DNA from: an uncultured Flavobacteriaceae bacterium
GTDB lineage: Bacteria > Bacteroidota > Bacteroidia > Flavobacteriales > Flavobacteriaceae
Assembly: GCA_937929935.1 (NCBI GenBank)
Contig: CALFUL010000003.1
Coordinates: forward strand, 124,001-188,000
Direction of reading: 5' to 3'
Length of the DNA: 64,000 nucleotides
Shown here: one piece after another, positions 3,629-20,273 of the stretch
Position numbering within the stretch: position 1 is the stretch's first letter
How the letters are laid out: every line of letters starts with the position of its first letter
Notes under the pieces: generated by a model
The model's database searches: none
Seen by the model: the letters and a program-made list of their open reading frames with translations, nothing else
Told to the model about the DNA's origin: nothing
Made by a program: the position numbers and the translations under genes

Positions 3629-3646
3629 TTCTTTTGTATCAGTTAT

Positions 3647-3701: not shown

Positions 3702-3775
3702 GGCCTCGTGGCGCAACTGAATAGCGCACTTGATTACGGCTCAAGAGGTTACAGGTTTGAATCCTGTCGAGGTCA
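3702..3775 (+). tRNA. tRNA-Arg (anticodon ACG)
   Basis: A 74-nt cloverleaf. Acceptor arms are 3702-3708 and 3768-3774 (one G-U pair) with discriminator A at 3775. The anticodon stem CTTGA/TCAAG encloses the loop TTACGGC, giving anticodon ACG (arginine, CGU/CGC). The T arm is ACAGG-TTTGAAT-CCTGT. CCA is not encoded. Its 3' end and downstream flank recur at 19924-20043, so this gene marks one edge of a candidate integrated island. Confidence 0.95.
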
Positions 3776-3880
3776 CGAATAAATAGTTCAATAAGAAAAA
3801 ACGCCAAGCTTGCTTGAGCGTTTTTTTGTTTGGACTATTTTCAAAGCGGAGCTTTGTCAGGAAAACCGAATGTCATGAGG
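3760..3880 (+). repeat. Island-boundary repeat, left copy (tRNA 3' end plus flank)
   Basis: This segment runs from the T arm of tRNA-Arg through its terminator to GAATGTCATGAGG. It aligns over roughly 120 bases with 19924-20043 in direct orientation. A 21-base core (3767-3787) is identical to 19931-19951. It covers the tRNA 3' acceptor strand, which is typical of tRNA-type attachment sites. The alignment was made by eye. Confidence 0.75.
3796..3827 (+). terminator. Terminator downstream of tRNA-Arg
   Basis: AAAAAACGC at 3796-3804 pairs with GCGTTTTTT at 3818-3826. An inner CAAGC/GCTTG stem and one unpaired A lie between them, and a T tract follows. It ends the tRNA transcript. The inner part is the reverse complement of the same region in the hairpin at 19947-20003. 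Confidence 0.85.
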
Positions 3881-4243
3881 TAATCCTTTTAAAATTATAT
3901 TTAGTTTGGATTTTTTATTTTCAGTGCGGAGCTAATAGGATGTTCAAGCGTAGCGAAGAAAATCCTGTAGACAAGATGCCAGCACACCGGTTGGCTCCTC
4001 ACTATAAAAGACCTGCCAGGTCTTTTGTAATCTTTCGGGCCCCTGTCGATCGCATTTCTATATTAGCTCTGCATGCCTTCAAATACTGTGTCACGAATAA
4101 ATTGTTCAACAAGAGCAAAGTGCATTATCAATCACCCATCTCATAAAAAAATCGACTCATATAAATGTTTTTGAATTTGATCGGTCGCTAAGCTCATTTA
4201 TGTTGAATTGTCCATTATAATTATGTGGAGTTAAAAAAATTAT
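3881..4243. other. Intergenic region with degenerate repeat fragments
   Basis: I see no convincing gene between the tRNA terminator and the susC promoter. The stretch has a second TATTTTCA..GCGGAGC motif near 3918 that echoes 3836-3852. A further partial copy of the tRNA downstream flank is at 4090-4119. An open frame crosses this region but is built from repeat sequence and has no protein-like composition. Confidence 0.5.
4090..4119 (+). repeat. Third, degenerate copy of the tRNA-Arg downstream flank
   Basis: About 26 of 30 bases match 3772-3801, starting GTCACGAATAAAT, with the acceptor-stem bases before it lost. It may be the scar of an earlier insertion or excision at the same tRNA site. 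Confidence 0.5.
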
Positions 4244-4272
4244 TATATTTGTTTTGTATACGGTATACAAAA
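4244..4272 (+). promoter_or_regulatory. susC operon promoter element and GntR-type operator
   Basis: TATATTTG at 4244-4251 is a good Bacteroidetes -7 element; no clear -33 element is visible. Directly after it lies a perfect 21-bp palindrome at 4252-4272 (half site TTTTGTATAC, central G). The predicted start site near 4257 falls inside the palindrome, which suits repression. The same palindrome sits over the promoter of the GntR gene at 19369-19389. A weaker half-similar copy follows at about 4273-4285. The implied 5' leader of the susC mRNA is about 225 nt. Confidence 0.75.
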
Positions 4273-4481
4273 TTCGGTATTCAAATTTTTAAAAAGCAAA
4301 TTAATTCGTAGTACCATTAATGTTGATCAAGGATAAATACGTTATGGTATAGAATAAAAAGTGCCATTTTATAAAATGGAAAAAGTGTCTGAATACAACC
4401 AAAACATAAACTTTTTAATAAGAAAATTTCAATTGCTGTGAAGAAAACTAATAATCAAATTTCAACTCAAATTCAACTTAA

Positions 4482-7400
4482 ATGGTAAAATGTAAATTAT
4501 TATTAATTGCGTTACTAATATGTATGACGCAATTTGCCTTGGCACAAGAAATTAATGTGTCAGGTACTGTAACGGATTCAGATGGAAACCCGTTGCCAGG
4601 AACTAATGTGGTTGTGAAAGGAACCACAAATGGAACACAAACAGATTTCGATGGTAATTATAACATCGCAGCTGCATCTAATGGTGTTTTGATTTTTAGT
4701 TACCTCGGTTATGTAACTAAGGAAATGGCTATAAGTGGTAACTCAAACATCAATGTGAGCCTTGTTGATGATGCACAAGCTTTAAGCGAAGTGGTTGTAG
4801 TAGCTTATGGTACCACCACCAAAAAAGATTTAACGGGAGCTATTGCCGTTATTGGCGCAGAAGCATTAAATACTTTTCCTGCAACGACAGTTGATCAGGC
4901 ATTACAAGGAAAGACCGCTGGTGTTCAGGTTACATCTAACTCAGGTGCACCAGGAGCATCTGTCTCTGTAAACATTCGTGGCGTAGGTTCTTTTGGAAGT
5001 ACCACTCCTTTATATGTGGTTGATGGTTTCCCTACACGTGACATTAATTTTATCAATCCAAATTCAATACAATCAATTTCAGTATTGAAAGATGCATCTG
5101 CAACTGCATTATATGGCGTACGTGCAAGTAATGGCGTTGTAATTATTCAAACCAAACAAGGTACAAGCGGTAAAGTGCAAGTAGAGTTAAATACCTTCGT
5201 TGGTTTCCGTACGCAACCTAACAAGGTTGATGTTCTAGATGTCGATCAATTTGCAGATTTGGCTACAGAATTGAGCAGTAGTGCAGACGCTAATGTTGCT
5301 GGTGCGGCAATACCGTATGCAGGTTGGAGCAATCCAAGTTCTTTAAGAAATATAGATTGGCAAGATGAAATTTTTAGCTCTGCGGTTACTAAAAGTTCCA
5401 CTTTAAACGTACTTGGGGGTGGAGAAAAATCTAGATTGGCTTTTACAGCCGGTATATTTGACGAAGAAGGTACACTGCTTGCATCTAAATATAAAAGGTA
5501 TGATTTCGGATTCAACGCTGGTTTTGATATTTCAGATAATCTCCGCCTAAAAAGTAATATTAAATACATTACTTCTCAAAGTTTTCAACCTTTAGGTACA
5601 GGACGTGGTGCTTTACTAAATCTGTATGCTACTGTGCCACATTTGGCTCCAGCAGGTGAGGCTAATCTTATCGGAGGGACTAACCCTACAGATCTTCCTG
5701 TTGATGCAAATGGTAACTTTGGTGCGTTCCCAGATGTAACTGGCGAAGCATTTCGTGATGGTAGAAACTGGGTAGCAAGAGCTTTGGAAAATGATCCAGA
5801 TAATGTGACCAATACTATTTTAGCAAATATTGATGTTGAATGGGATATTTACGGAGGACTTTCAACCCAATTAAAAGTTGGTGGTAGGGTAGATAATTTC
5901 GCAGGTGAAAACTTTCAGCCAGCATATTACAGAAGTAGTGGTAACATTGATTTAAGAGATAATGCGGTCTACAATTCAAGACAGTCAACTTCTAATGAGT
6001 GGTTGGCGGAATATTTATTAAAGTATAAGAAAACGTTTAATGAAAAACACACCATAGATGTACTTGGGGGTGTTTCAGCTCAAAGAAGATATAGAAGATT
6101 TGCTGGTGCAGATGGTGTTGGCTTTTTAAATAATGATGTGCGAAGTATTGCAGGAGCGAACGATGTGCAAAATGCATTTGGATTTTCTGATAGAAGAACA
6201 CTAGCCAGTACCTTTGCAAGGTTAAATTACAGCTATGATAGTAAATACTACTTAACAGGTACAATACGTAGAGACGGTGTTGGTGATGTCTTTAGTCCTC
6301 AAAATTTATGGGGTGTTTTTCCTTCTTTTGCCGCTGGATGGAATATTGATGAAGAGGCCTTTATGGAAGATAGTACATTCAACACCTTAAAGTTTAGAGC
6401 TAGCTGGGGTGAAACTGGAAACTTCGACGGAATTGAATCGTTCCAATATCTTGCATTCTTTACGGGTCAAGCTGGAAGAAACGATACTAATTATAGTTTT
6501 GACGGAACAACAAATGGTCAACTAGGTTTAGCACCGCTAGTTTTAGCTAATACAGACTTGAGTTGGGAAACACAAACACAAACCAATATAGGGCTAGAAG
6601 GCTCTTTATTAAATAACAAACTTTATTTCACAACAGACTATTTTATTAGAGAATCTGGTAATTTCTTATTCAATCAAACAGTGCCAGCACAGACAGGTTT
6701 TACCGTGCAACCACAAAATGGGGGCACAGTTGTGAATAAGGGTCTAGAATTTTTACTGGGTTACCGCCAAAATGAAGGTGATTTTACCTACGATATCAAT
6801 GCGAATGTTACCTTTTTAGACAATGAAATTACAGAAATAGATAATCCGTCTAGAGAAGTGGTCTTTAGCAATCAATTTCTAAATGACTTCGATCAAGCTG
6901 GTTTTTGGTATGACATTACTAGAGCCCAAGAAGGTGGTGAAGTAGGTTCTTTTTATGGTTTTGTTGCTGACGGTATATTTCAGAATCAGGCAGAGGTAGA
7001 TGCTGCTCCAACAAGACCAAACGGTACTCCTTCACCGGGTGACCGTAAGTTTAAAGATTTAAATGGTGATGGTGTAATTAATGGTGATGACAGAACCACC
7101 ATTGGTAGTCCAGTTCCTGATTTCTTTGGTAGTTTGAACCTTACATTCAACTACAAGAATTTTGATTTAGGACTAAACTTCTATGGTTCTTACGGTAATG
7201 ATATACTTAATTTGGTAAAACGTGAATTAGAAAGTGCCTCTGGTTATGGTAATTCTGCCTCTTTTTCAAACGTTAGTCAAGAATACTATGACAATAGATG
7301 GAATGGAGATGGTAGTACCAATGAATTTGCAAGAGCGCTACTTGATGATGGAAATATTCAGAACACAAGAGCCTCTAGCCATTTTGTTGAAGATGGTTCT

Positions 7401-7655
7401 TATTTCCGTTTGCGAAACCTGAATTTAGGGTATAGTTTACCAAATAAAGTTATTGATAATTTAGGTTTGTCAAATTTGAGATTCTATATGAGTGCTCAAA
7501 ATTTATTTACAATAACAAACTACTCTGGTTCTGATCCTGAGATTGGCCAAAATTCTGATATTAATGGAAATAGTAGTGTTACAACGCGTGGCATTGACGC
7601 TGGGGCATATCCATTGTCTAAAACCTTTACATTAGGACTTAATTTGAAATTTTAA
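4482..7655 (+). CDS. SusC/RagA-family TonB-dependent outer-membrane receptor
   Basis: This 1057-residue transporter imports oligosaccharides across the outer membrane using TonB energy. A signal peptide (to about LAQE at residue 23) is followed by a carboxypeptidase-regulatory-like domain (VSGTVTDSDGNPLPGTNVV, residues 26-100). The SusC plug follows with LSEVVVVAYGTTTKKDLTGA, QGKTAGVQVTSNSGAPG and the signature LKDASATALYGVRASNGVV. The rest is a 22-strand barrel ending in an aromatic-rich strand with terminal Phe. The length is usual for SusC. It is the first gene of a four-gene plus-strand operon and has an operator over its start site. The substrate cannot be read from the sequence. Confidence 0.96.
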   Translation: MVKCKLLLIALLICMTQFALAQEINVSGTVTDSDGNPLPGTNVVVKGTTNGTQTDFDGNYNIAAASNGVLIFSYLGYVTKEMAISGNSNINVSLVDDAQALSEVVVVAYGTTTKKDLTGAIAVIGAEALNTFPATTVDQALQGKTAGVQVTSNSGAPGASVSVNIRGVGSFGSTTPLYVVDGFPTRDINFINPNSIQSISVLKDASATALYGVRASNGVVIIQTKQGTSGKVQVELNTFVGFRTQPNKVDVLDVDQFADLATELSSSADANVAGAAIPYAGWSNPSSLRNIDWQDEIFSSAVTKSSTLNVLGGGEKSRLAFTAGIFDEEGTLLASKYKRYDFGFNAGFDISDNLRLKSNIKYITSQSFQPLGTGRGALLNLYATVPHLAPAGEANLIGGTNPTDLPVDANGNFGAFPDVTGEAFRDGRNWVARALENDPDNVTNTILANIDVEWDIYGGLSTQLKVGGRVDNFAGENFQPAYYRSSGNIDLRDNAVYNSRQSTSNEWLAEYLLKYKKTFNEKHTIDVLGGVSAQRRYRRFAGADGVGFLNNDVRSIAGANDVQNAFGFSDRRTLASTFARLNYSYDSKYYLTGTIRRDGVGDVFSPQNLWGVFPSFAAGWNIDEEAFMEDSTFNTLKFRASWGETGNFDGIESFQYLAFFTGQAGRNDTNYSFDGTTNGQLGLAPLVLANTDLSWETQTQTNIGLEGSLLNNKLYFTTDYFIRESGNFLFNQTVPAQTGFTVQPQNGGTVVNKGLEFLLGYRQNEGDFTYDINANVTFLDNEITEIDNPSREVVFSNQFLNDFDQAGFWYDITRAQEGGEVGSFYGFVADGIFQNQAEVDAAPTRPNGTPSPGDRKFKDLNGDGVINGDDRTTIGSPVPDFFGSLNLTFNYKNFDLGLNFYGSYGNDILNLVKRELESASGYGNSASFSNVSQEYYDNRWNGDGSTNEFARALLDDGNIQNTRASSHFVEDGSYFRLRNLNLGYSLPNKVIDNLGLSNLRFYMSAQNLFTITNYSGSDPEIGQNSDINGNSSVTTRGIDAGAYPLSKTFTLGLNLKF

Positions 7656-7666
7656 AAAAAAACGTT

Positions 7667-9223
7667 ATGAATATAAAAATGATAAATACTAAAAGAATGG
7701 CTCTTTTAGCCGTCTTTGCGCTGGTCACTTTAGTGGCTTGTTCAGAAGAGTTCTTGATCGACACAAATAATAAAGATCTCACAGGCGAAGTAGTCTTTGG
7801 TTCAGATGCAACAGCAGTTGCTGTTGTCACAGGGGTGTATGATGCATTTCAAAATGATTCTCAAGGAGATTCAGGAATTCCAAATGAGTACAACGTTAAA
7901 GGTGTACACCGTTGGGCAAATAGTACTGGCCTAGATTTTTTGAACAATGAAAATCCAGAAACAAGTGATTATTTAAATTTTAACCCAGACCCGTCAACAA
8001 GCGATGTTGCCGTTAAAATTTGGCCTAATCATTACAGACAAATAGGGAGAGCAAATATCGCGCTTGAAAACATGCGATTGGCAGTCGAAAACGAGAACAT
8101 CACAGTAGACTTAGGTAATCGTCTAATAGGTGAATTGTTGGTATTAAGAGCGATTTCTTACCAATATTTAGCTGAAGTTTATGGTGATGTCCCATTAATG
8201 TTGAGTACAGAAGATGATCCATTCAGAGCTAGAGACCCTCAAGATGCGGTTTTCCAACAGATTGTAACTGATGCTGAGGAGGCAATAGATTTATTGCCAT
8301 GGGTCTATGATGCGGAAAAAGGTCGAGTAACCAAGGCGACTGCGTATACGGTTTTAGGAAATGCCCACATGTGGCTAGGTCAATATGGCGATGCTGTTAC
8401 AGCTTACGAAGCATTGGAAAATAGTCCTGTTCTAGACTTGGAAGCAGATTTCTTCGATATACATGCTGTTGACAATCCTAATGGTAAAGAATCAATATTC
8501 GAAATTCAATGGGCTGCAAATGGAGATTTAGGATGGAATAGAAATGACGAAGTAAATATTTTACAATTATTTGCTATGCCCACTGATATTACCGGTGGTG
8601 GTGGATTTACAGGAATTCCTTCCAAAGAATTATACGATGCTTTTGAGCCTGGCGATACAAGAAGAATGGCAACAGTTATAGCACCTGGAGAAGAACATCC
8701 TGATCCGAATATCAACATCATCGATTATGACGGTGTTGAAATAAATACGGTTGGTACTGTTGCTGAACCTTGGACAGGTGGTTCGCCAGAAACGCGTTCG
8801 GGTTACTGGGCCATTAAATCTTGGAGAGATCCAAATATAGAAGGATGGGGTAGATCAGTACTTTTTGGAGGCCAAGGTCATATTTGGATGCGCTACGGAG
8901 GTGTTTTACTAAGTTTATCTGAAGCTGCATTAAAAGATGGTCAAACCGCTAAGGCACAGGCCGCTTTTGATAGAGTAAGAAATAGAGCTTGGGGAGGCAC
9001 AGCACCTGCCAAAACAGTCACAATGGATGCGTTACTACAAGAGTATAGGTTAGAATTAGCTGGTGAGTTCTCACTTTGGGGGGTTGTCAGACGTTCTGGT
9101 GAAGCTGTTAAATTTGTACAAGATAATTATGGATTAACAATGCCTACAGATCGGCAAATTTATCCTATACCAAGTGATCAGTTAAGTGCTAATCCTAATT
9201 TAGTACAGAACCCAGGATATTAA
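7667..9223 (+). CDS. SusD/RagB-family glycan-binding lipoprotein
   Basis: This 518-residue surface lipoprotein forms the lid of the SusC transporter and binds the incoming glycan. The lipobox is in LVTLVACSEEF. The SusD signature is seen in RLIGELLVLRAISYQYLAEVY (TPR-like helices near residues 145-165), and the C-terminus has the usual LAGEFSLWGVVRRSGEA and IYPIPSDQLSANPNLVQNPGY. It starts 11 bases after susC. ATG 7667 was chosen; ATG 7679 would also leave a signal peptide. Its presence makes this a SusCD-type polysaccharide utilisation locus. Confidence 0.95.
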   Translation: MNIKMINTKRMALLAVFALVTLVACSEEFLIDTNNKDLTGEVVFGSDATAVAVVTGVYDAFQNDSQGDSGIPNEYNVKGVHRWANSTGLDFLNNENPETSDYLNFNPDPSTSDVAVKIWPNHYRQIGRANIALENMRLAVENENITVDLGNRLIGELLVLRAISYQYLAEVYGDVPLMLSTEDDPFRARDPQDAVFQQIVTDAEEAIDLLPWVYDAEKGRVTKATAYTVLGNAHMWLGQYGDAVTAYEALENSPVLDLEADFFDIHAVDNPNGKESIFEIQWAANGDLGWNRNDEVNILQLFAMPTDITGGGGFTGIPSKELYDAFEPGDTRRMATVIAPGEEHPDPNINIIDYDGVEINTVGTVAEPWTGGSPETRSGYWAIKSWRDPNIEGWGRSVLFGGQGHIWMRYGGVLLSLSEAALKDGQTAKAQAAFDRVRNRAWGGTAPAKTVTMDALLQEYRLELAGEFSLWGVVRRSGEAVKFVQDNYGLTMPTDRQIYPIPSDQLSANPNLVQNPGY

Positions 9224-9306
9224 GATAGCAGTTAGTTTTAAGTTAGTTTGAAAAAGGGGCTTTTGATTTAATTCGAAAGTTCCTTTTTTTTTACCTTTAT
9301 TATAAT

Positions 9307-12300
9307 ATGAAAAGTATATACATCGTCGCTATTATAATTTTATTAATCTCGTGTACAGAACAAAATAAAAAACAGTTTAGCTTAATTTCTTCTATGGATA
9401 CGGGCATCGCATTTTCAAATGATATTGTTGAAACTGACAGCCTAAACTATTTTAACTACCCATACATGTATATGGGTGGCGGGGTTTCAGCGGGAGACAT
9501 CAATAATGACGGACTCATCGATTTGTTTTTTACTTCCAACATGAAGTCCAATTCCCTTTATTTAAATAAGGGAAATTTCAAATTTGAAGATATCACGGCT
9601 ACTGCCCAAGTTGGTGGAGATGATAGATGGTTTACGGGCACTACCATGGTTGATATTAACAATGACGGGTATCTTGATATCTACGCAAGCGTATCAGGTA
9701 AGACCGAAAACCGAAAAAACCAATTGTATATTAATAATGGAGATGAAACTTTTACTGAAAAAGGAAGTACCTATGGTATAGATGACAATGGCCATACCAC
9801 CCAGAGTACTTTTTTTGATTATGACAATGATGGCGATTTAGATTTGTATTTGGCAAACTACCCTCCCACCCCTTTTAAAAGTCCGGTGGAACTCTATCAA
9901 AATAAGTCAAAAAATCCCAAGTTAAAAGAGTCAGATGTACTCTATAGAAATAATGGAAATGGAACATTTACCAATGTGACCATCGCATCAGGTATTTTGA
10001 ATTTCGGACTTTCATTGAGTGCTACAGCAGGCGATTTTAACAATGATGGATGGAAAGATATCTATGTCTCAAACGATTTTGATTCGGCGGACTACCTCTA
10101 TATTAATAAGCAAGATGGTACTTTTGAAGAAATAGCTAAGAATGCTTTAAATCATACGTCACAATATGGTATGGGAGTTGATATTGCTGATTACAACAAT
10201 GACAACCTTCTCGATATTGCCCAGGTAGATATGACGCCTGAAGATAATAGAAGATCAAAAGCAAACATGGCAAGCATGAACCCTTTAGGGTTTACTAAAA
10301 TGGTTGATGCCGGGTTGAACTATCAATACATGCAGAATAGCCTTCAGTTAAACAGAGGCACCGATAGTATTGGAAATCCTATTTTTAGCGAAGTATCTCG
10401 AATAGCTGGAATATCTACTACCGACTGGAGTTGGTCTATCTTATTTGCTGATCTAGACAATGATGGTTGGAAAGACCTTACCATATCAAACGGTACAAGA
10501 AGAGACATTAATAATCGTGACTACTTTTTACAACTCAAATCAAGAAATCACTTTGGCGGGGTTAAACTTTCTGCTGAAGAAATTGAGCAAATTCCATCAG
10601 AGAAAGTTTCCAACTATATTTATAAGAACACCCAGAATCATACCTTTAAAAATATGGTTTCCGAATGGGGTTGGGAAGAAAAAACCTTTTCCAATGGTGC
10701 CACCTACGCCGATTTAGATAATGATGGAGATTTAGATGTTGTACTTAATAACATCGACCAGAAAGCTTCTGTGTATCGCAATAATAATAAAGCAGATAAT
10801 AATTTCCTTCAAGTGACCTTGGTCGGGCCTGAGTCGAATACCAAAGGTATAGGCACCAAAGTATACCTTAGCACAGAAGAAGGCGAGCAACTGAATGAAT
10901 TAACCATGACCAGAGGGTTCCAATCCTCAGTATCGCCACGATTGCATTTTGGTCTTGGAAAAAATGATTCAATTGCCAGAGTAAAGGTGGTTTGGCCCAA
11001 TGGCAGCGTTTCAAAACTTGATGCTGTTAAAGTCAATCAAAATCTGACTGTAGAATTCGTCTCTGCCAAAAAAATGAACTCCTTAGAATCGGAGAATGCA
11101 CCTTTATTTGAAACCGTAAATTTAGATAGTATCGGTCTTCAATATCGCCATAAAGAAAACAACTATTACGATTATGCTTTAGAGCCTTTGTTGCCGCACC
11201 AAACTTCAATGTTAGGTCCGGGCGTGGCTGTTGCAGATGTCAACGGAGACGGTTTAGACGATTTTTATGTGGGGGGAGCATCCCAGCAAGCAGGCACTTT
11301 GTTTATTCAAAATACATCGGGGAAATTTCAAAAAACGAATACCGCCATTTGGGAAGCTGATAAATCCAAAGAAGATATGAGTGCCTTATTTTTTGATGCG
11401 GACAATGACGGAGATCAAGATTTATATATGGTTAGCGGTGGTAATGAAAAAACCAATGATAGTACAAGGTTTCAAGACCGCCTTTATACAAACAATGGAA
11501 AGGGAGATTTTGTAAAAAGTGAAAACAGCCTACCAGAAATTAACACCAGCGGATCTAGGGTAATAGCAGGAGATTATGACAATGACGGCGACCTTGATTT
11601 ATTCGTTGGCGGAAGACTTGTAGCTGGTCAATATCCTTGGCCTACCAAGAGTTATCTATTACACAATGAAAATGGCGTTTTTAAAGATGTTACCTCTCAA
11701 ATTGCGCCTGACTTTGAGCAGCTCGGAATGATAACAGATGCTAGTTGGAGCGATTTTAACGGCGATGGCACCCTGGATCTTGTCATTGTAGGCGAATGGA
11801 CACCGATTCTTTTTTACAGTAATACAGACGGAAAATTTAAAAATGTAACGACCGATACTGGTTTAGAAAACACCAATGGTTGGTGGTCTAGCCTTATACA
11901 AGATGATTTTGACGGCGATGGCGACATCGACTATGTAGCGGGTAATCTTGGCCTCAACTATAAATATCAAGCTACTGCTGAAGAGCCTTTTGAAGTGTAT
12001 GCCGATGATTTTGATAACAACAAACGTAAAGATATCGTCTTAAGCTATTACAACTTCGGAAAGTTATTTCCAGTAAGAGGGAAGTCGTGCTCATCACAAC
12101 AGATGCCATCGCTAAAAACAAAATTTGAAAATTATGGCTCTTTCGCTGAAGCGGATGTTTCCCAGGTGTATGGGAAAGAAGCATTAGAAAATGCCGAAAT
12201 ACACTACAAGGCCTACACCTTTGCGAGCAGTTATCTTCAAAATTTAGGCGGTGGAAAATTCAAACGTATTGAACTTCCTAATGAGGCACAATTCTCATCT

Positions 12301-12582: not shown

Positions 12583-12662
12583 TCTCCATATTACACGCGC
12601 ATAAGGATGGCTTATGCCATCGAAAATACCAACGAATCAAAATAACAATAAGAACCCTGTTT

Positions 12663-15470
12663 ATGAAACTATCTAACGGACTTCAATACTGCTTTATTTC
12701 TGTACTTACTTTATTCTTGCTAACCGCTTGCAATAATGGAATTCCGGAAAATTGGCAATGGGAAACCCTTAATACAACAGACCAACCAACAGCTCGCCAC
12801 GAAGCCGGATTTGTAGCGTATAAATCAAAACTGTATTTGATGGGTGGCCGCCGTATCAATCCGACTTCTGAATTTGATGTTACCACAAATACTTGGGTTG
12901 AAAAAGCGCCAACACCTATAGAATTGCATCATTTTCAGCCGGTTTTATATGAGGATGCTATTTATATCATTGGAGCGATGACCGGGAAATGGCCGAATGA
13001 AACACCAGTAGAAAAAGTAATCATCTATTATCCGGAACGTGATGAGTATGTGTATAGCCATCCCATTCCTGAGCATAGACGCAGAGGCGGAGCCGGCACC
13101 GTGGTTTACAATGATAAAATATATTTGGTCGGCGGCATTACAAAGGGCCATATGAATGGCTATAAACCTTGGTTTGATGAATACGACCCTGCTACGGGCG
13201 AATGGAAAGTTTTGGAAGATGCGCCTAGTGCACGAGATCATTTTCAAGCAGTGGCAAACCAAGACAAACTTTATGCTTTTGCAGGCCGCACCACCTCAAA
13301 GAAGACCGAACAAGATATGGCTTTAACTATTGGTCATGGCAACGTCTATAATTTCTCCACACAAAAATGGGAAACCGTTACCAATAATTTGGCGATTCCG
13401 ACCGAGCGTGCCGGAAATTTTGCCTTTGCATGGAACAACGCCATCGTTGTTGGCGGGGGCGAAAGTATTGCGCAGGTAAAAGCCCATAGTGAAGTTGAGG
13501 CGTATGACACCGAAACAAAGCAATGGAGTAAATGGCCCGCGCTCAATGAAGGAAGACATGGTTCTGGATTTGCAGTGATAGGCAATTACGTGTACACGGC
13601 ATCAGGATGCGGAAACCGAGGTGGTGAACCTGAACTAACCACTATTGAGCGTTTAGAGTTGCCCAAAGGCACACCTGAACCACTCGCCCAAGCTGTGGAC
13701 AAAAGCCCTGTAGTTTCACAATGGCATACGGTAACACTTTCTTTCGACGGTCCTGAAACATCGGAAACGGCAACTGAAAATCCGTTTTTAGATTATAGGC
13801 TAAATGTTGAATTTCAGCATGAAGAAACAAAGCAGACCATTCGTGGTTTTTATGCCGCCGATGGCAACAGTGCTGAAAGTAGTGCGACCTCGGGGGCGAC
13901 CTGGCAAGTGCGATTTACACCCGATAAGGTAGGCAAATGGACATATTCAGCTGTAATGCAAAAGGGCGATAGTATCGCATTGCATAAGGATCTAAGCAAA
14001 GGCGAAACTGTTTCTATTACCAATGCTAAGGGTAATTTTGTAGTAGTGCCTTCGGATAAAGAAATGAGCGATTTTAGAGCTAAAGGAAGGCTTGAAGCCT
14101 CCAAAGGTTATTTTAAATTTCGTGATAGTGACACCTATTGGCTTAAGGCAGGAACCAATAGTCCTGAAAATCTTTTGGGCTATGTTGATTTTGACGATAC
14201 TTATAGAATATTGGCGGAAGCAAGGGATGGCGAAGCTGCCGCACCCGACTCCATACATCGTTTTGGGCCACATTTAAAAGATTGGAAAACTGGAGATACC
14301 ACATGGAAAAACGGAAAAGGAAAATCGCTTGTAGGCGCTATTAACTATTTGGCATCCAAAGGAATGAATTCTGCCTATTTTTTAACCCTAAATATTTTAG
14401 GAGATGGAAAAGATGTCTGGCCTTATGTTTCTCCGGATGAGTTTACCCGTTTTGATGTCAGCAAGCTAGACCAATGGGAAGTCTTATTCCAGCACATGCA
14501 GGCAAAGGGAATTTTACTGCACGTGGTACTACAGGAAACGGAAAATGAAACCATGTTAGATAATGGAGAGACTGGCCCGTTGCGTCAATTGTATTTTCAA
14601 GAACTTATCGCCCGCTTCGGGCATCATCTCGGGTTAGTATGGAATTTGGGAGAGGAAAATGGCCCTGCCCCGTGGGTACCTGTTGGTCAAAATGATGCCC
14701 AACGAAAAGCCATGGCAAAATTTATTAAAGAAAATGACCCGTATCAACATCCCGTGTTGTTACACACACATTCTGAAGACCCCTTACGGTCGGATATTCT
14801 CGATGATATTGTCGGTTTCGAATATGTAGATGGATTATCATTACAACAGGCCGAACGTGAGCATACTCCAGCTATAATCGCAGAATGGCGAACCAAAGCG
14901 AGTAATACAAATCACGATTGGGTCATTACCATGGATGAAATTGGAAAATGGCATACAGGAGCCCGAACCGATGCACAAGACCCAAACCATGATAGTTTAC
15001 GACAGCATGTACTTTGGGGAAGTCTACTATCAGGAGGTGCCGGTGTTGAGTGGTATTTTGGTGCAAAACAACCGCAGAACGATTTAACTTCGGAAGATTG
15101 GCGTCAGCGCAATCGTCTTTGGGAAATTACGAATCATGCAAAGGAGTTTTTCAATGCGCATATCCCCTATTGGGAAATGCAACCCAATCATCAACTCATC
15201 AACTCAAAAGAAGCCTTTTGCTTGCAAAAAGCCAATGAAATTTATGCCGTATATGTACCCAATTCAAAACGCCACACCATCAACTTAAAAAATGCCAAGG
15301 GTTCATATAGTGTTCAATGGTATAATCCATTAGAGGGTGGCCCATTAGCGTCAGGATCCAGTGAAATAATAGCGGGTGGAGGCATTCGAAATTTAGGAAA
15401 TCCACCTAAAAACAAAAACACAGTGCCCAATCAAGATTGGGTATGTCTGATACAAGTAGTTAGTGAATAA
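12663..15470 (+). CDS. Kelch propeller - DUF5060 - glycosidase-like fusion lipoprotein
   Basis: This 935-residue lipoprotein (LLTACNNG) has a composite layout. Residues about 30-345 carry Kelch repeats of the YLMGGR, YLVGGI, YAFAGR, VVGGGES type. Residues about 350-470 match a DUF5060 beta domain (VTLSFDGPE, TWQVRFTPDKVGKWTYS). Residues about 480-830 look like a TIM-barrel glycosidase of the DUF4038/apiosidase-like kind, with LVWNLGEENG holding a candidate catalytic Glu and IIAEWR a second one. A small C-terminal beta domain (VQWYNPLEGG) follows. It is likely anchored at the cell surface and acts on the locus glycan. Catalytic residues and substrate are inferred, not proven. Confidence 0.8.
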   Translation: MKLSNGLQYCFISVLTLFLLTACNNGIPENWQWETLNTTDQPTARHEAGFVAYKSKLYLMGGRRINPTSEFDVTTNTWVEKAPTPIELHHFQPVLYEDAIYIIGAMTGKWPNETPVEKVIIYYPERDEYVYSHPIPEHRRRGGAGTVVYNDKIYLVGGITKGHMNGYKPWFDEYDPATGEWKVLEDAPSARDHFQAVANQDKLYAFAGRTTSKKTEQDMALTIGHGNVYNFSTQKWETVTNNLAIPTERAGNFAFAWNNAIVVGGGESIAQVKAHSEVEAYDTETKQWSKWPALNEGRHGSGFAVIGNYVYTASGCGNRGGEPELTTIERLELPKGTPEPLAQAVDKSPVVSQWHTVTLSFDGPETSETATENPFLDYRLNVEFQHEETKQTIRGFYAADGNSAESSATSGATWQVRFTPDKVGKWTYSAVMQKGDSIALHKDLSKGETVSITNAKGNFVVVPSDKEMSDFRAKGRLEASKGYFKFRDSDTYWLKAGTNSPENLLGYVDFDDTYRILAEARDGEAAAPDSIHRFGPHLKDWKTGDTTWKNGKGKSLVGAINYLASKGMNSAYFLTLNILGDGKDVWPYVSPDEFTRFDVSKLDQWEVLFQHMQAKGILLHVVLQETENETMLDNGETGPLRQLYFQELIARFGHHLGLVWNLGEENGPAPWVPVGQNDAQRKAMAKFIKENDPYQHPVLLHTHSEDPLRSDILDDIVGFEYVDGLSLQQAEREHTPAIIAEWRTKASNTNHDWVITMDEIGKWHTGARTDAQDPNHDSLRQHVLWGSLLSGGAGVEWYFGAKQPQNDLTSEDWRQRNRLWEITNHAKEFFNAHIPYWEMQPNHQLINSKEAFCLQKANEIYAVYVPNSKRHTINLKNAKGSYSVQWYNPLEGGPLASGSSEIIAGGGIRNLGNPPKNKNTVPNQDWVCLIQVVSE

Positions 15471-15475
15471 TTCTT

Positions 15476-15898
15476 TTAGTCGAATTCGTCTAGTGCCTCT
15501 AAAACGACAACTTCGTCCATTTCGGCATCCATTGTGCCAGCTACGGCAATACCCCCAATTATCTCATTCTCATGCGTGATAGGATACCCTCCTTTTAAGG
15601 GTATATAAGGTTGTGATGTACTATTGTTTAATATCAGCATAGGCGAACGGCCACTTAAAATAACATCTTCTATACTTTTGGTTGGTCTTTGAAACGCAAC
15701 TGCTGTAGCCGCTTTACCGTTAGCGATATTGGTAGCGGCCTGCATGGTGCCGTCTAATCGCTCTACTAAAATTAAATGCCCTCCACTATCAACAATAGCA
15801 ATGGCTCCGGGCACCTTATGTTTGGTGGCTGAAGCCACTGCGGCTTTCATTAATTTTTTCGCCTCTGCGTAGCTTATAGAACTTTGAGTTTTGGGCAT
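15476..15898 (-). CDS. GlcG/HbpS family (DUF336) protein
   Basis: This 140-residue cytoplasmic protein has the family pattern: helix AKKLMKAAVASA, strand PGAIAIVDSGGHLI, then GKAATAVAF, and near the end GGYPITHENEIIGGIAVAG. Family members are linked to glycolate, diol or aldehyde catabolism and to haem binding, but the biochemical role is unsettled. It is the last gene of the minus-strand operon headed by the GntR regulator and meets the Kelch fusion gene tail to tail with a 5-base gap. No signal peptide is present. Confidence 0.85.
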   Translation of the reverse strand: MPKTQSSISYAEAKKLMKAAVASATKHKVPGAIAIVDSGGHLILVERLDGTMQAATNIANGKAATAVAFQRPTKSIEDVILSGRSPMLILNNSTSQPYIPLKGGYPITHENEIIGGIAVAGTMDAEMDEVVVLEALDEFD

Positions 15899-15908
15899 CT
15901 ATTTTTTA

Positions 15909-16868
15909 TTAGAGTCTATAGATTTCTTTACGGACTAGTTTCATCAAATCCATATGCTTTTCTTCATGCATGAGTCTTCTGTACTTATCGCGATCTAAAT
16001 TTTCTACGATGTTCCAGATAGCCTTGTTCATTTCAGCATGCTCTGTAAAGAAATCTACCATATCAAAAATACGGGGCGAAGCATCTGCGGTAAAGTATTT
16101 ATCATACCCAAATTCCTTAGCGTAAAAAAAGAATTCAACAGTATGCAAGAAGTTTCTAGACCCACCTATTAAATCCCAATCAAACTGCCAATCATTGTCA
16201 TTGGTATGCAAATAATAATCTACATTCGATTGCTCACACATCGCCAGCACCTCAGCAGGATTTTCTTTCGCCAAAAGAGAATGACCAAAATCAATGGTAA
16301 TACCTGTAGCAGCATTTTGAACTTCCTTTAAAAATACAATAGTCTTTGCACAGCTGTCTAAAAAGCAATTCACTCTAGTTTCATTGATTTTGTACTCAAC
16401 AAAAAGTGGCATTTCTGGTTTATAATCCGCTGCTTCGGCAAAAGCATCGATCATGTACTTCCATCCTTTTTGATAATCTACCTGAAACAGGTTGTCATAT
16501 CCATCAGATAAAGGGCAACAAGTAACCAACGGCGCGCCAACTGCAATGGCATAATCTTTGGCATCTTTTATTAATTGTACGGCACTTTTTCTCAAATCTG
16601 CATCGGGTCTAGATAAAGCCCCAGGCACCCATTTGGTTTCCTTTTTTATATTGGCGTTTACTGCGGCAAAATTAAGTCCCATCTCATGCATCAGTGCTTT
16701 GGTAGCAGCAGCTTTTTCCGTTTCATACGGAAAAACAATTTCTACACCTGTGACACCATCTATCTTTTTTACCGTTTCAAGCCGTTCTCTAAGTCCGGTA
16801 GGTTTTTGGTATTCAGAAAATCTATCTTGCGTTTTACTTAAAAACGCGGTAATAATACTTTGCTTCAT
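15909..16868 (-). CDS. Sugar isomerase/epimerase-like TIM-barrel protein
   Basis: This 319-residue protein is of the xylose-isomerase-like TIM-barrel (AP-endonuclease 2) superfamily. Strand ends carry putative metal ligands: FVEYKINE (Glu), TIDFGHS (Asp and His), YYLHTNDND (His and Asp). These are the positions of metal-binding residues in sugar epimerases such as tagatose-3-epimerase. It probably isomerises or epimerises a free sugar or sugar acid delivered by the neighbouring MFS transporter. It lies between the lyxose-isomerase-like gene and the GlcG gene with gaps of 10-21 bases. The precise substrate is unknown. Confidence 0.8.
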   Translation of the reverse strand: MKQSIITAFLSKTQDRFSEYQKPTGLRERLETVKKIDGVTGVEIVFPYETEKAAATKALMHEMGLNFAAVNANIKKETKWVPGALSRPDADLRKSAVQLIKDAKDYAIAVGAPLVTCCPLSDGYDNLFQVDYQKGWKYMIDAFAEAADYKPEMPLFVEYKINETRVNCFLDSCAKTIVFLKEVQNAATGITIDFGHSLLAKENPAEVLAMCEQSNVDYYLHTNDNDWQFDWDLIGGSRNFLHTVEFFFYAKEFGYDKYFTADASPRIFDMVDFFTEHAEMNKAIWNIVENLDRDKYRRLMHEEKHMDLMKLVRKEIYRL

Positions 16869-16889
16869 TTACTAAATTTTAGCTATAAT

Positions 16890-17432
16890 TTATTTTTCGA
16901 TTACCGTATCTCTAACAATATTAGGATCGGTAAATTGGTCATTTAAATCTGTTACAGTGGTTGAAAAAGAGTACATAACTGCTCCTTTCGCCCCAGCTTG
17001 AAACCAATGTTTTGTTCCTGCCGGAAGTTCTAATTGATCACCGGGTTTCATATCTACCTCATGCCGCATGGTATAAAAATCTTCCTTACCGTCTACAATA
17101 AAGCCTTTTTTCATATTGTCTTCTCCAGGGATATAGAAATAGAGATCTCCGCCCAATGCCCGAATGACTTCCTCTTTTCCGGGGTCGTCGCCCACTGTGG
17201 GGTGCCAATGCTCGGGTTCTGTTTGAAAAGGCAACAGCACCAATATTTTTCCGGCGATTCGACCGGTTTGAAATAGGGTCAATATTTGAATACCCTCTTT
17301 CTTTATTTCGTTTAAACCAAAATCAGCCGCTGTCATTTTCAGCTTGTCTGCTTCGGTAAGTAAAAGACCTGCCTTTTCAATCATTGCAATTGATTTTTGA
17401 CAAACCTCTTTAAAATCTTTCTTTGTTATCAT
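16890..17432 (-). CDS. D-lyxose ketol-isomerase-like cupin
   Basis: This 180-residue cupin carries the metal site of D-lyxose isomerases: His75 and His77 in EHWHP, Glu88 eleven residues later, and His142 in AGTKHWF. Members interconvert D-lyxose and D-xylulose, and often D-mannose and D-fructose. Length and spacing of ligands match the family. It sits between the MFS transporter (5-base gap) and the TIM-barrel epimerase, so it probably works early in cytoplasmic breakdown of the imported sugar. Other aldose-ketose pairs are possible. Confidence 0.85.
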   Translation of the reverse strand: MITKKDFKEVCQKSIAMIEKAGLLLTEADKLKMTAADFGLNEIKKEGIQILTLFQTGRIAGKILVLLPFQTEPEHWHPTVGDDPGKEEVIRALGGDLYFYIPGEDNMKKGFIVDGKEDFYTMRHEVDMKPGDQLELPAGTKHWFQAGAKGAVMYSFSTTVTDLNDQFTDPNIVRDTVIEK

Positions 17433-17437
17433 TCCAA

Positions 17438-18706
17438 TTATTTACTTAAATCTAAAACCTCATCGGCCCGTATGTTCATCCAAAAGAAAATGGCAAGCAC
17501 ATTCAAGATAGCCGCAAGCACAAAGAATGGGGTTACCGAACCTGTGAATTCAATCATGTATGGAAATGCCAAAGCCGTTAAGAAAGAGCCTAGATTTCCG
17601 GCCATATTCATAGTACCACTTACTGTACCAGAATTTTCTTTTCCGATATCGACACAGGTTGACCATGACGGACTCAAAGTCATATCAGCACCAAAAACGG
17701 CAATCGAAATAAATAGGATCGCCCCATTAACCTCGTTCATAAAAATGCTCATAATGATACCAAAAGCTGCTAGGGCAAATCCTATAATCGCAGGCAACTT
17801 TCTTGATAAGGCCCATTTTCCTTTTTTATAAGTGCTATCCACAAGCCATCCAGAAAACCAATTCCCCAATGCACCGCATAACAAGGGTGCAGATGCATAT
17901 AAACCTGCTTCCATAGAATCTAGATGATACGTACTTTTAATATGTGGAAAAAGCCATGTTAGGCAAAAGAAAAAAGTGAAATTACTGGAAAAATACTGCC
18001 CCATTAACAGCAGCATATTCTTCGACTTGAACATTTTTAATAATGACGTTTCACTTTTGGTTTCAGCTTTTTCTTTCTCTGTGTGTTCTTGAATGTATTT
18101 AATTTCTTCTTCAGAAATATACTTATGATCCTCCGGATTATCACGAAACCATAAATACCAACAAACCGCCCATACAACACCAAAAACACCCAATATCACA
18201 AAACTGATTTTCCAACCTACCAAATCAATAAGCCATGCGACAACAGGCAGTGCTATGGCAGCACCAATACGGCCACCAGAAAAATTAATACCATTGACAA
18301 TGCCACGTTCGCTGATAGGAATCCATTTATAAATTGCCCTTGCCATACTTGGGAAAGCACCAGCTTCGCCAGCTCCAAATAAAAAGCGTATTATAAGTAT
18401 GGAAATCAAATTGAAGGCTGCACCAGTTATTGCTGTGAAAAAAGACCATAAACTTACGATTAGGACAAGTGTTTTACGAGGCCCATGCTTATCAACAAAA
18501 ATTCCAGAAGGAGTTTGAAACAAAGCATAACCTAATGCAAAAATGGCTAAAACCCAACCCATTTCAGTATCAGAAAGAGAAAGTGATTCTGAAACTGGAT
18601 CTTTGGCAACTGAAATCAAAACACGATCAAAAAGTACGATTAATGCGAGCAAAAAAGTTGCTCCCACCATTTGATGACGAACTGGGAATAATTTTTTATG
18701 ACCCAT
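17438..18706 (-). CDS. MFS transporter, anion:cation symporter (hexuronate-like) type
   Basis: This 422-residue protein has 12 predicted membrane helices. The N-terminal half carries MGWVLAIFALGYALFQTPSG and FVDKHGPRKTL, the motif A region typical of the ACS family that transports hexuronates, glucarate and galactonate. FLFGAGEAGAFPSMARAIYK is a second family hallmark. It should import a sugar acid or sugar across the inner membrane after periplasmic release. Its 3' neighbours encode two isomerases. Its 5' end overlaps the GntR regulator gene by 11 bases, which indicates translational coupling. Confidence 0.92.
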   Translation of the reverse strand: MGHKKLFPVRHQMVGATFLLALIVLFDRVLISVAKDPVSESLSLSDTEMGWVLAIFALGYALFQTPSGIFVDKHGPRKTLVLIVSLWSFFTAITGAAFNLISILIIRFLFGAGEAGAFPSMARAIYKWIPISERGIVNGINFSGGRIGAAIALPVVAWLIDLVGWKISFVILGVFGVVWAVCWYLWFRDNPEDHKYISEEEIKYIQEHTEKEKAETKSETSLLKMFKSKNMLLLMGQYFSSNFTFFFCLTWLFPHIKSTYHLDSMEAGLYASAPLLCGALGNWFSGWLVDSTYKKGKWALSRKLPAIIGFALAAFGIIMSIFMNEVNGAILFISIAVFGADMTLSPSWSTCVDIGKENSGTVSGTMNMAGNLGSFLTALAFPYMIEFTGSVTPFFVLAAILNVLAIFFWMNIRADEVLDLSK

Positions 18707-19343
18707 TCGCCAATTTTTCTAGAATCAATGTTTTAGATTTTAATAAGTGAACTTTACACAACGCCTCTGCCTTTTCAGTATCGCGCTGTTTTACGGCTTC
18801 TATAATATCTAAATGTTCTTGAAGCGTTTCTTCAGGAGGCCGCACTAGACCAATGCGTACAATACAACTCAATAGATTTGCTTGAGTAACTAATTTTCTT
18901 AAAAAATCATTCTGACATTTCTCAATGATTGTCTCATGGAATTGCAAATCTGCTTTTGAATACTTCGCATTATCAATAAGACCTTTCTTATTTACAAAAG
19001 GAAGAAAAATAGATGCTAATGTCTCAACATCTTTGTCAGAAGCCGATTCAGTAAACAAGGTTATGGCCATACATTCCAAAGCTACCCTACAGTCATAAAT
19101 TTCAACAACTTCGCGATCGCCAAATTGTTTCACAAAGACACCTCTTCTTGGCACTGACTCAACCAAATATTCAGATTCTAATCGATTCAAAGCGTTTCGC
19201 AGTGGGGTTCTACTGATACCTAAAGTCTCTGCCAATTTATCTTGAACAATTTTTTGACCTGCCTTCAATTCATTGGATAAAATCATTTCTTTTACCCTGT
19301 CATAAGCAATGTCTCCCAGTCCATCTATAGCGATTAAACTCAT
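18696..19343 (-). CDS. GntR family (FadR/FCD subfamily) transcriptional regulator
   Basis: This 215-residue regulator has an N-terminal winged helix (residues about 5-75, recognition region LAETLGISRTPLRNALNRL and wing ESVPRRGVFV). The C-terminal helical FCD ligand-binding domain has conserved residues in DCRVALECMA and FHETI. FCD regulators usually sense sugar acids or other small carboxylates. A 21-bp palindrome covers its own promoter and an identical one covers the susC promoter, so it very likely represses both operons. It is the first gene of the catabolic operon. Confidence 0.93.
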   Translation of the reverse strand: MSLIAIDGLGDIAYDRVKEMILSNELKAGQKIVQDKLAETLGISRTPLRNALNRLESEYLVESVPRRGVFVKQFGDREVVEIYDCRVALECMAITLFTESASDKDVETLASIFLPFVNKKGLIDNAKYSKADLQFHETIIEKCQNDFLRKLVTQANLLSCIVRIGLVRPPEETLQEHLDIIEAVKQRDTEKAEALCKVHLLKSKTLILEKLANGS

Positions 19344-19368
19344 ATGTTAATTTGTTAGTATAGTTGTC

Positions 19369-19389
19369 TTTTGTATACCGTATACAAAA
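19369..19389 (-). promoter_or_regulatory. GntR-type operator, autoregulatory copy
   Basis: A perfect 21-bp palindrome (half site TTTTGTATAC, central C on the plus strand). It is the exact reverse complement of the palindrome at 4252-4272. It overlaps the -7 element and the predicted start site of the regulator operon. Confidence 0.85.
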
Positions 19390-19414
19390 TTAAAAATATT
19401 ATTGACTTACCCAA
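19385..19414 (-). promoter_or_regulatory. Promoter of the GntR-MFS-isomerase operon
   Basis: On the minus strand TTG at 19414-19412 and TAATTTTG at 19392-19385 are separated by exactly 19 bases, as in the Bacteroidetes consensus. The start site would fall near 19379, within the operator. Confidence 0.75.
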
Positions 19415-19923
19415 GTAATTAAGGGGCTATATTACAAAAAGGTGCTTTTTAAGTAAAAAAATCTGTTTAGAAATTGTCACATTGCGTCTTTGAGGGTAAA
19501 TAACACCACTGTCCTTAGTATTATTTGTCATCTTTGTGCACTTCTTCTTTATTTGCCCAATTAAACTAATTACCACAAAAGCCTAAAAACCTATTTTATT
19601 GAAAATATTAATAACCATTTTCTGTCCTTGAATTATGCCTCCCAAAGTACGGCTTTTTGTTGATTTTCGTATTTACAGATTGGGTTCCCTTTTACTTCAG
19701 CATCAACCAGCAGATTTCAAGCATGCTCATGTAAGTTCAGCTATGCTTTTATAAACCTCATGTAAGTTTGTAGCCTCTATGGAATTTTTTATATTTTTTC
19801 AATACTTTTAATCTTGATTGTGTTCTTTTAAAATTAAACTATAATCGAGTGAATGACTAGGTGGTATTTATAAAAAAAATAATTATAACTTATTGAAAAT
19901 AAATAAATTAAATTATAATTTAT
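19415..19923. other. Intergenic region at the island's right side
   Basis: This AT-rich stretch has no intact gene. It holds a possible 3' gene remnant (19633-19716) and a 12-base direct repeat CTCATGTAAGTT near 19727 and 19758. A very AT-rich run (about 19860-19925) comes immediately before the tRNA-end duplicate. No integrase or transposase fragment was recognised. Confidence 0.5.
19633..19716 (-). pseudogene. Possible 3' remnant of a lost gene
   Basis: On the minus strand 27 codons read with protein-like composition (KGNPICKYENQQKAVLWEA followed by TAA), preceded by an in-frame TGA. No start is present. It may be the C-terminal end of a gene deleted during island rearrangement. The stretch is short enough to be chance, so this call is weak. 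Confidence 0.25.
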
Positions 19924-20043
19924 AACCCTTTCGAGGTCACGAATAAATAGTAGAATAAGAAAAAACGCTCAAGCAAGCTTGGCGTTTTTTCTTATTCTAC
20001 TATTTTCAAAGCGGAGCCTGAGGGAAAACCGAATGTAATGAGG
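19924..20043 (+). repeat. Island-boundary repeat, right copy (tRNA-Arg 3' end duplicate)
   Basis: This copy begins within the T-arm sequence (AACCCTTTCGAGG against AATCCTGTCGAGG in the tRNA). It includes the acceptor 3' strand, the hairpin and the downstream block ending GAATGTAATGAGG. The first 21 bases of core (19931-19951) are identical to 3767-3787. No complete tRNA precedes it: only the 3' end is duplicated, as expected for an attachment-site remnant. Confidence 0.75.
19947..20003. terminator. Long perfect hairpin within the right boundary repeat
   Basis: A 22-bp perfect outer stem (19947-19968 with 19982-20003) is followed by an inner CAAGC/GCTTG stem with a single bulged T. It carries A and T tracts, so it can act as a terminator on either strand. 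The central 13 bases are the exact reverse complement of the matching bases in the tRNA-Arg terminator at 3805-3817. Confidence 0.8.
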
Positions 20044-20051
20044 AACTAGAA

Positions 20052-20204: not shown

Positions 20205-20249
20205 CAGATTTGTTTTTACAAATATAATTACTTTGATAGTAGAAAATAC

Positions 20250-20273
20250 AAAGACCGCCATAGGGCGGTCTTT
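20250..20273. terminator. Intrinsic terminator hairpin
   Basis: AAAGACCGCC (20250-20259) and GGCGGTCTTT (20264-20273) form a perfect 10-bp stem with a 4-nt loop. It lies upstream of the 50-residue minus-strand gene, and no gene in the window clearly ends here. It may insulate neighbouring transcripts. Confidence 0.65.

Follow-up and report, generated by a model that had tools for sequence, protein, structure and literature searches.

Background

Islands carried to tRNA genes by tyrosine integrases use the tRNA 3' end as their target and directly duplicate its tail, and duplicated tRNA 3' ends have become a routine sign for calling genomic islands. Tycheposons, which belong to a different phylum, are likewise islands bounded by tRNAs; they carry nutrient genes along with partial copies of the tRNA, and some of them have no integrase. 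Here we analyse a 16-kb block of sugar-use genes, termed PUL2, which lies 3' of a tRNA-Arg(ACG) gene in an uncultured Flavobacteriaceae bacterium, between two direct repeats that contain the 3' end of this tRNA. The stretch of DNA analysed, hereafter the window, comprises 64,000 nucleotides (contig C3, positions 124001-188000) of a 3.1-Mb draft assembly in 40 contigs that is 85% complete. An earlier note, made from the sequence alone, had read the block as a tRNA-bounded carbohydrate island with the repeat as its footprint. We favour, at a probability of roughly two in three, a reading in which PUL2 is a sugar-use regulon that was acquired 3' of the tRNA-Arg(ACG) at an array of older, short cassettes, followed by a later inversion.

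With tRNA-targeted islands that use tyrosine integrases the locus shares the tRNA 3' end target, the direct tail duplication and the presence of integrases at the same tRNA in relatives; it differs in that no integrase was found here, that the repeat is a widespread hairpin cassette and that the locus is inverted. With the polysaccharide utilization loci (PULs) of Bacteroidota it shares a SusC/SusD pair, a regulator, a transporter, isomerases and shared candidate operators, whereas its candidate enzyme is a protein with Kelch and DUF5060 parts and no glycoside hydrolase family model was reached. A further comparison concerns small nuclease genes beside tRNAs: PMC13096335 describes SegB of phages T4 and T6 as a free-standing GIY-YIG homing endonuclease beside tRNA genes, with tandem repeats of the segment.

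The repeat pair and a family of tRNA-tail cassettes

The tRNA and the elements recognised at the two ends of the block are:

3702..3776, + strand: tRNA-Arg(ACG), the target gene (ARAGORN; Rfam RF00005)
3777..3886, + strand: left tRNA-tail cassette, a terminator-like hairpin and then an interrupted T-arm-like end (84% identical to the right copy; match to covariance model R1 at 3768-3856; copies family-wide)
3918..3972, + strand: degenerate second unit (TTTTCAGTGCGGAGC ... AATCCTGTAGAC), similar to a cassette end of genome G004 (by eye, against locus L059)
4091..4118, + strand: possible third tail-like remnant (TGTCACGAATAAATTGTTCAACAAGAGC; by eye, R1 giving only E 0.69 over 4086-4202)
19913..20045, + strand: right tRNA-tail cassette with an apparently decayed T-arm and tail, a perfect hairpin and an inverted loop (repeat alignment and model R1)

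The sole tRNA that ARAGORN reports in the window is this tRNA-Arg(acg), and Rfam at gathering thresholds over 3300-20700 returned nothing beyond it. The tRNA 3' end and about 110 bp of its flank (3760-3880) recur in direct orientation at 19924-20045, at a spacing of 16.16 kb, with 84% identity (E 5.7e-28) and an exact 21-base core (3767-3787 and 19931-19951), which is also the longest identical run between two copies that otherwise differ throughout. The repeat and core reported in the earlier note are thus borne out; the homology past the tRNA, given there as about 90 bases, runs here to about 110. To the left it extends beyond what that note had seen: positions 3749-3776 and 19913-19940 agree in 21 of 28 bases, so that a decayed T-arm is apparently present in the right copy, and the similarity of the 19 bases before the core is equalled by 3 of 2000 random windows of the island. 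No third full copy exists in the assembly, the other matches being those of the hairpin to its own antisense strand and words no longer than 20 bases. Likewise, a covariance model (R1) built from 32 cassette copies, both window copies included, matched only the two repeat sites on the + strand of the window (E 2e-25 and 3e-19) together with their antisense hairpins, and nothing in the remainder of the window below E 0.36.

The left repeat (3767-3880) proved to be a member of a large family. Matches at E 0.001 were found in 60 of 199 Flavobacteriaceae genomes, a lower bound as four candidates per genome were scored, and one that includes some short matches, from 22 bases upward; 34 of the 60, our genome included, have at least 80 bases at 84% identity or more, and in 18 genomes besides our own the match covers 87 bases or more with an identity of 93% or higher. 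A tRNA-Arg lies within 170 bp of the cassette in 26 of 30 fetched loci, including our own (18 acg, 7 tcg and 1 tct), and ARAGORN found no tRNA in the other four. Several of these loci hold arrays that run from the tRNA through a unit, a copy of the last 17 tRNA bases, the next unit and the next copy, with two types of unit occurring in either order; at other loci a unit has no recognisable tail copy behind it. The tail copies match the local tRNA variant, for example AATCTTGTCAGGGTCAC in genome G002 and AATCCTCCCGCGGTCAC in G162. Behind tRNA-Arg(tcg) in loci L253, L254 and L255 there are arrays with a period of 102-105 bp that keep the AAAGCGGAGCTTTG part, a full tail copy not being seen.

Across 32 sequences, 98.2% of the hairpin cells are paired, and two-sided changes occupy 39 cells, against 7.7 in shuffles (0 of 500 reaching that number) and 3-8 in slid controls. 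The hairpin stems are hence conserved and covarying; template switching at quasi-palindromes could also create paired changes of this kind. In the right-hand window copy the palindrome is perfect, and its loop has the reverse orientation of the canonical loop seen in 37 counted tail-anchored cassettes; this copy looks like the product of a template-switching event. An apparent second case of an inverted loop, at locus L168, is a cassette of the canonical form that had been read from the opposite strand. The stretch at 3972-4024 of the window (GATGCCAGCACACCGGTTGGCTCCTCACTATAAAAGACCTGCC...) has similar counterparts near cassettes in L164, L299 and L352 and, by eye, looks like a further dispersed repeat of the family.

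We compared the identity of the cassette with that of apt, the adenine phosphoribosyltransferase gene beside the tRNA, at ten loci, of which nine gave an apt match and eight a cassette measure. Identity of the left cassette reaches 97.5% with the cassettes of L203, L204 and L205, at loci where that of apt is 63-67%; for the genus relatives L059 and L066 the figures are only 87.5 and 91.2% (apt 71 and 68%), and for L216, L201 and L213 they are 90.0, 93.8 (twice) and 92.5% (apt 67.7, 64.4 and 62.2%). This pattern suggests either transfer between genera or very strong constraint. At the scale of the phylum, the hairpin model found 13 of 296 genomes, 12 of them Flavobacteriaceae (our own included) and the last from a different family of the same class; as the filters were strict and 14 candidates per genome were scored, this is a lower bound. 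The exact 20-nt core had no match in IMG/VR, nor did the left repeat match phage records at the settings used.

A copy of the tRNA tail (up to 2 mismatches) lies within 600 bp downstream in 24 of 80 distinct tRNA-Arg loci, a set biased by having been fetched partly for the cassette, and in 8 of 61 other tRNAs; upstream, as a control, there are none for tRNA-Arg and one for other tRNAs. Among 54 tRNA-Arg(acg) entries fetched through apt, 12 have a tail copy. As tail copies follow other tRNAs too, they were ruled out as proof of an integrase element. In Flavobacteriaceae small cassettes yield the very sign by which islands are called, so that island calls at tRNA genes need a prior check for cassettes, and tRNA-end repeats alone are insufficient as proof of a classical integrated island. 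A reading of the repeat as the footprint of the block is not supported, the same unit being found in 60 of the 199 family genomes behind tRNA-Arg, in several cases with a tail copy and further units. The outcome that the earlier note had named as counting against its island, a flank repeat recurring after many tRNA genes, is approached across the family, our own genome having just the two copies.

The locus in related genomes

The genes that anchor the locus on its two sides are:

3116..3628, - strand: apt, adenine phosphoribosyltransferase, inverted relative to g50 and the exchanger gene (NCBIfam apt equivalog; gene order in 88 distinct loci)
20052..20261, - strand: g50, a small conserved gene that overlaps or abuts the apt stop codon in relatives (directly 3' of apt in 58 of 88 loci; alignments)
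20737..21675, + strand: Na/Ca exchanger family protein, the conserved right anchor (PF01699, E 6e-68; 3' of apt in 54 of 88 loci)

The comparison set comprised 10 loci from the genus and 80 from named genomes, 90 in all and 88 distinct. A search for PUL2 genes at 35% identity or more over half the protein found none around apt in the 90 loci, 72 of which extend at least 5 kb on both sides; a lone homolog (59%) of a symporter of PUL1, a second carbohydrate locus next to apt in our genome, was present in two. In 56 of the 88 distinct loci the 5' side of apt carries, no farther than 2.1 kb away, a tRNA-Arg in antisense orientation, with one locus showing the other orientation; g50 follows antisense right behind apt in 58 and farther off in 2, and the exchanger gene behind it in 54, the remaining loci having no recognisable partner or ending too early. 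No Pfam family matched g50.

The 3' side of the tRNA is the variable part of this arrangement. In four of the ten genus loci it carries acs, a gene for an AMP-binding enzyme (PF00501), at a distance from the tRNA of 92 bp in G005, where the site is empty, 326 bp in G012, 1736 bp in G010 and 4896 bp in G004. In 7 of the 56 apt-tRNA loci, 52 of which reach at least 700 bases on that side, a homolog of a tyrosine integrase pointing away from the tRNA lies within 600 bp of the tRNA 3' end; Pfam confirms both query integrases (Arm-DNA-bind_5, SAM_5, PF00589), and in G203 two cassettes lie between the tRNA and the integrase. The varied distance to acs and the integrases so close by mark this side as a variable hot spot. 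A remnant of a tyrosine recombinase C-terminus can be seen close behind the tRNA-Arg cassette of G216 (L170:1501-1900; by eye, with a tblastn match). What stands of the earlier proposal of an island at this tRNA is a discrete gene set 3' of tRNA-Arg at a hot spot, none of whose genes was found near apt in the 90 loci; what is not supported is the repeat as its footprint.

The order in our genome is acs, PUL1 (17 kb), two small genes, apt reversed, the tRNA reversed, PUL2, the right cassette, g50 and the exchanger gene. Thus the tRNA and apt are reversed relative to g50 and the exchanger gene, and likewise relative to acs where relatives have it, and the right cassette ends about 10 bases or less from the stop codon of g50. 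The empty site predicted in the earlier note, in which the tRNA and one copy of the flank would run directly into g50, a gene it described as encoding 50 residues, is accordingly wrong.

Gene content and regulation of PUL2

Between the repeat copies lie two convergent operons, the carbohydrate system that the earlier note had recognised. The left one (+ strand) encodes SusC, SusD, an FG-GAP/ASPIC protein and a 935-aa Kelch and DUF5060 protein, and the right one (- strand) a GntR/FCD regulator, an MFS transporter, a cupin resembling lyxose/mannose isomerases, a TIM barrel resembling xylose isomerase and an HbpS-like protein:

4254..4270, no strand assigned: palindromic operator candidate of the left operon (one of two places in our genome)
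4482..7655, + strand: SusC-type TonB-dependent transporter (TIGR04056, E 9e-265)
7667..9223, + strand: SusD-type binding lipoprotein (PF07980, E 4e-22)
9307..12582, + strand: FG-GAP / UnbV-ASPIC protein (PF13517, PF07593)
12663..15470, + strand: Kelch propeller fused to a DUF5060 ... collagen-bind_2 part, possibly a glycosidase (PF24681, PF16586, PF12904)
15476..15898, - strand: HbpS-like protein (PF03928, E 5e-29)
15909..16868, - strand: xylose-isomerase-like TIM barrel (PF01261; 3ktc, E 2e-27)
16890..17432, - strand: D-lyxose/D-mannose isomerase-like cupin (7nzo, E 2.6e-39)
17438..18706, - strand: MFS transporter, closest to a galactonate transporter model (PF07690, E 4e-62; TIGR00893 best, under its cut-off)
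18696..19343, - strand: GntR/FCD regulator, candidate binder of both operators (PF00392, PF07729; palindrome also upstream of the G013 homolog)
19371..19387, no strand assigned: palindromic operator candidate of the right operon (the second of the two places)

The palindrome TTGTATACNGTATACAA (up to 1 mismatch) occurs at exactly two sites in the 3.1-Mb assembly, 4254 and 19371, which are 212 and 28 bases ahead of the first genes of the left and right operons, respectively. Genome G013 has an operon of GntR, MFS, cupin and TIM barrel genes that is 56-79% identical, with the same palindrome once, upstream of its GntR gene. Joint control is predicted from the shared palindrome at both operon starts and at the GntR homolog of G013, and the island genes look like one regulon with both operons probably under common control through the candidate operators.

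No glycoside hydrolase family model in Pfam or NCBIfam was reached by the island genes, and the DUF5060/collagen-bind_2 part is the only candidate carbohydrate-active enzyme in the island. In a PDB search with the Kelch and DUF5060 protein, the Kelch part alone was matched among the best 60 of 91 rows; its C-terminal part has relatives elsewhere in the genus, with up to 74% identity. Within the genus, relatives of PUL2 occur as pieces dispersed over other parts of the genomes, and the right operon had no match among plasmid records at the settings used. Positions 3881-19923 have a G+C of 0.385, while the window outside 3701-20045 has 0.345; values of 0.43-0.45 are reached in the HbpS-like gene and in both the Kelch and DUF5060 parts of the fusion protein. 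By eye, the earlier note had judged the genes at 9.3-15.5 kb richer in G and C than the flanks. A scan of nine genes between the copies gave no match to an integrase family, in agreement with that note; smaller open reading frames (ORFs) there were listed, not scanned.

Possible routes of the island to this site

In the reading that we favour, the 16-kb block would be one sugar-use regulon, acquired at a place where the family repeatedly takes up DNA. Its ends would be two older, related tRNA-tail cassettes and not attachment (att) sites made by the island, such cassettes being short ORF-less units that contain a hairpin resembling a terminator, in many cases end in a copy of the tail of the local tRNA, and would accumulate behind tRNA-Arg genes. 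Entry would most likely have taken place at a cassette array, either through a tyrosine integrase that has since disappeared or through recombination between flanks that bear cassettes. Cassette, island, tRNA and apt would later have been inverted, so that the right-hand cassette came to lie against g50; PUL1 now lies between acs and apt.

Several points weigh against this sequence of events. No integrase gene or remnant was recognised among the nine genes scanned in the block. At 45% identity acs is lacking in four genus loci whose sequence extends 7.1-8.5 kb on that side, as it is in all 80 named-genome loci; with acs near the tRNA in only four of the ten genus loci, the left anchor rests on few genomes. 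An 8-base word is common to the apt side and the g50 side of the break, so that the order may have arisen through an event that duplicated its target and not through simple inversion; as 26 of 2000 random pairs match as well, such a target-site duplication is itself a weak candidate. The greater age of the cassettes relative to the island is something we infer, and in a genome that is an incomplete draft there is a slight chance that the contig is a chimera joined within the right-hand palindrome.

The two closest rivals overlap with the favoured reading on the route of entry, and we consider both rather unlikely. In the first, a classical integrase-borne island would have integrated at the tRNA 3' end and restored the tRNA and terminator, with attR and the old flank at 19.9 kb and the integrase lost later; it differs from our reading in the nature of the repeats. 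The tyrosine integrases directly behind the same tRNA in relatives, the two cassettes between tRNA and integrase in G203, and a direct orientation and 17-nt tail compatible with an att core all fit this account. However, no integrase is among the scanned block genes, the repeat runs about 110 bp beyond the tRNA and occurs elsewhere at tRNA-Arg genes without PUL2, and at its far side the block borders on g50, a gene not located 3' of the tRNA in relatives. In the second, the block would have entered without an integrase, by recombination between the cassette arrays of two tRNA-Arg loci. Cassettes that are up to 97.5% identical between genera, above the 63-67% of apt, imply that cassette-bearing flanks may move between genomes, and they follow ACG, TCG and TCT tRNA-Arg genes alike; exchange between homologous tRNA flanks, already offered in the earlier note as an alternative, thereby gains weight. 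Yet the two copies here are merely 84% alike, and no donor with PUL2 beside tRNA-Arg was seen in up to 39 whole genomes and the 90 loci.

That there was no acquisition at all is improbable. PUL2 would then be an old neighbour, and a rearrangement would have put the piece with tRNA and apt between two carbohydrate loci, which accords with the unrelated loci on both sides of it and with a gene order that implies its inversion or relocation; but PUL1 and PUL2 were not found near apt in the 90 loci, save for the PUL1 symporter homolog in two, and the PUL2 relatives in the genus are scattered elsewhere. An assembly artefact, with the contig wrongly joined within the right-hand palindrome, is the most improbable of all, for although the right copy is a perfect palindrome with a loop inverted against 37 canonical cassettes in a draft genome, the copies differ throughout with at most 21 identical bases in a row, and the end with the regulator has the same candidate operator as the opposite end, so that the island itself is coherent.

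GIY-YIG units at other tRNA genes

Apart from the ORF-less cassettes, small genes of the GIY-YIG family (PF01541) are found next to tRNAs, and between tail copies behind the tRNA-Phe of our own genome and behind a tRNA-Met of G150. The tRNA-Phe locus (L250:6903-7310) holds the GIY-YIG gene and a broken second copy in tandem, with tRNA-Phe tail copies, and upstream a tRNA-Phe-like copy broken by a palindrome. In G150 the tRNA-Met (L251:1530-3559) is followed by five tandem GIY-YIG units with a 391-bp period, each closed by tRNA positions 41-75. At the tRNA-Leu locus of our genome (L282:1286-1775) the gene lies ahead of tRNA-Leu(caa) and is flanked by exact partial tRNA-Leu copies (positions 7-24 and 24-64), which by eye are broken by small palindromes. 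Interruption by small palindromes, again judged by eye, is seen in most of the partial tRNA copies inspected.

With eight tRNA-adjacent proteins as query against 149 genomes of the family, a search in which the protein family was preselected and position was not part of the model, relatives were found in 109 genomes. Among the 30 best loci, four of them query loci, 28 hold a tRNA, 25 of these within 300 bp and in every such case on the same strand. Outside annotated tRNAs, 16 of the 28 (including the four query loci) contain 18 or more bases copied from their nearest tRNA, against 0 of 84 shuffled loci. The two kinds of unit also meet: in G147 (L352) one tRNA-Arg(tcg) has behind it first a GIY-YIG unit, next a tail copy and then an ORF-less unit, and in G225 and G096 GIY-YIG units lie ahead of the same tRNA-Arg that ORF-less cassettes follow.

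We infer that the GIY-YIG units are related to the cassettes of the island, and tentatively propose, while doubting it somewhat more than we believe it, that Flavobacteriaceae harbour an undescribed class of tRNA-targeting cassettes, with the island ends as ORF-less members, and that arrays of these, not integrase att sites, made the docking place. Autonomous members would encode a small predicted GIY-YIG nuclease, lie in the sense of the tRNA and leave one intact tRNA; the partial tRNA copy left behind would be interrupted by a small palindrome, which may block re-cutting. The ORF-less members, of a hairpin and a tail in about 100-180 bp, would have spread between tRNA-Arg genes and genera, and may have been moved by predicted GIY-YIG nucleases, by integrases at tRNA-Arg or by plain recombination. 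Two results speak against the link: 10 of 18 small GIY-YIG loci selected by Pfam family alone in six genomes have no tRNA sequence nearby, and the two window cassettes have no GIY-YIG ORF and no room for one, so that the GIY-YIG reading was not adopted for these two themselves.

If the link is true, the units would correspond in bacteria to phage SegB and would reshape tRNA loci throughout a large family. The likeness to SegB as described in PMC13096335 lies in a free-standing GIY-YIG gene next to a tRNA and in tandem repeats; unlike it, the bacterial units, known here from sequence alone, lie on chromosomes at several kinds of tRNA, with partial tRNA copies broken by palindromes and with ORF-less cassettes. 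In the open-licence PMC literature no paper on GIY-YIG/tRNA cassettes in bacterial chromosomes was recognised by its title or the start of its abstract, and the available part of PMC9897764 mentions neither GIY-YIG nor Flavobacteria.

The neighbouring locus PUL1

PUL2 adds a self-contained sugar regulon with a predicted operator, and PUL1, between acs and apt, is a carbohydrate locus of different composition. It occupies L068:2684-19900, the end of which corresponds to 236-1900 of the window, and encodes a GntR regulator, SusCD, an FG-GAP protein, a Melibiase-like protein, an SSF Na/solute symporter, a galactokinase, a member of the GH13 alpha-amylase family and an FAD-dependent glycerophosphate-oxidase-like protein. 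As galactose and glycerol phosphate steps occur together, this gene content suggests a galactosyl-glycerol such as floridoside as a possible substrate of PUL1.

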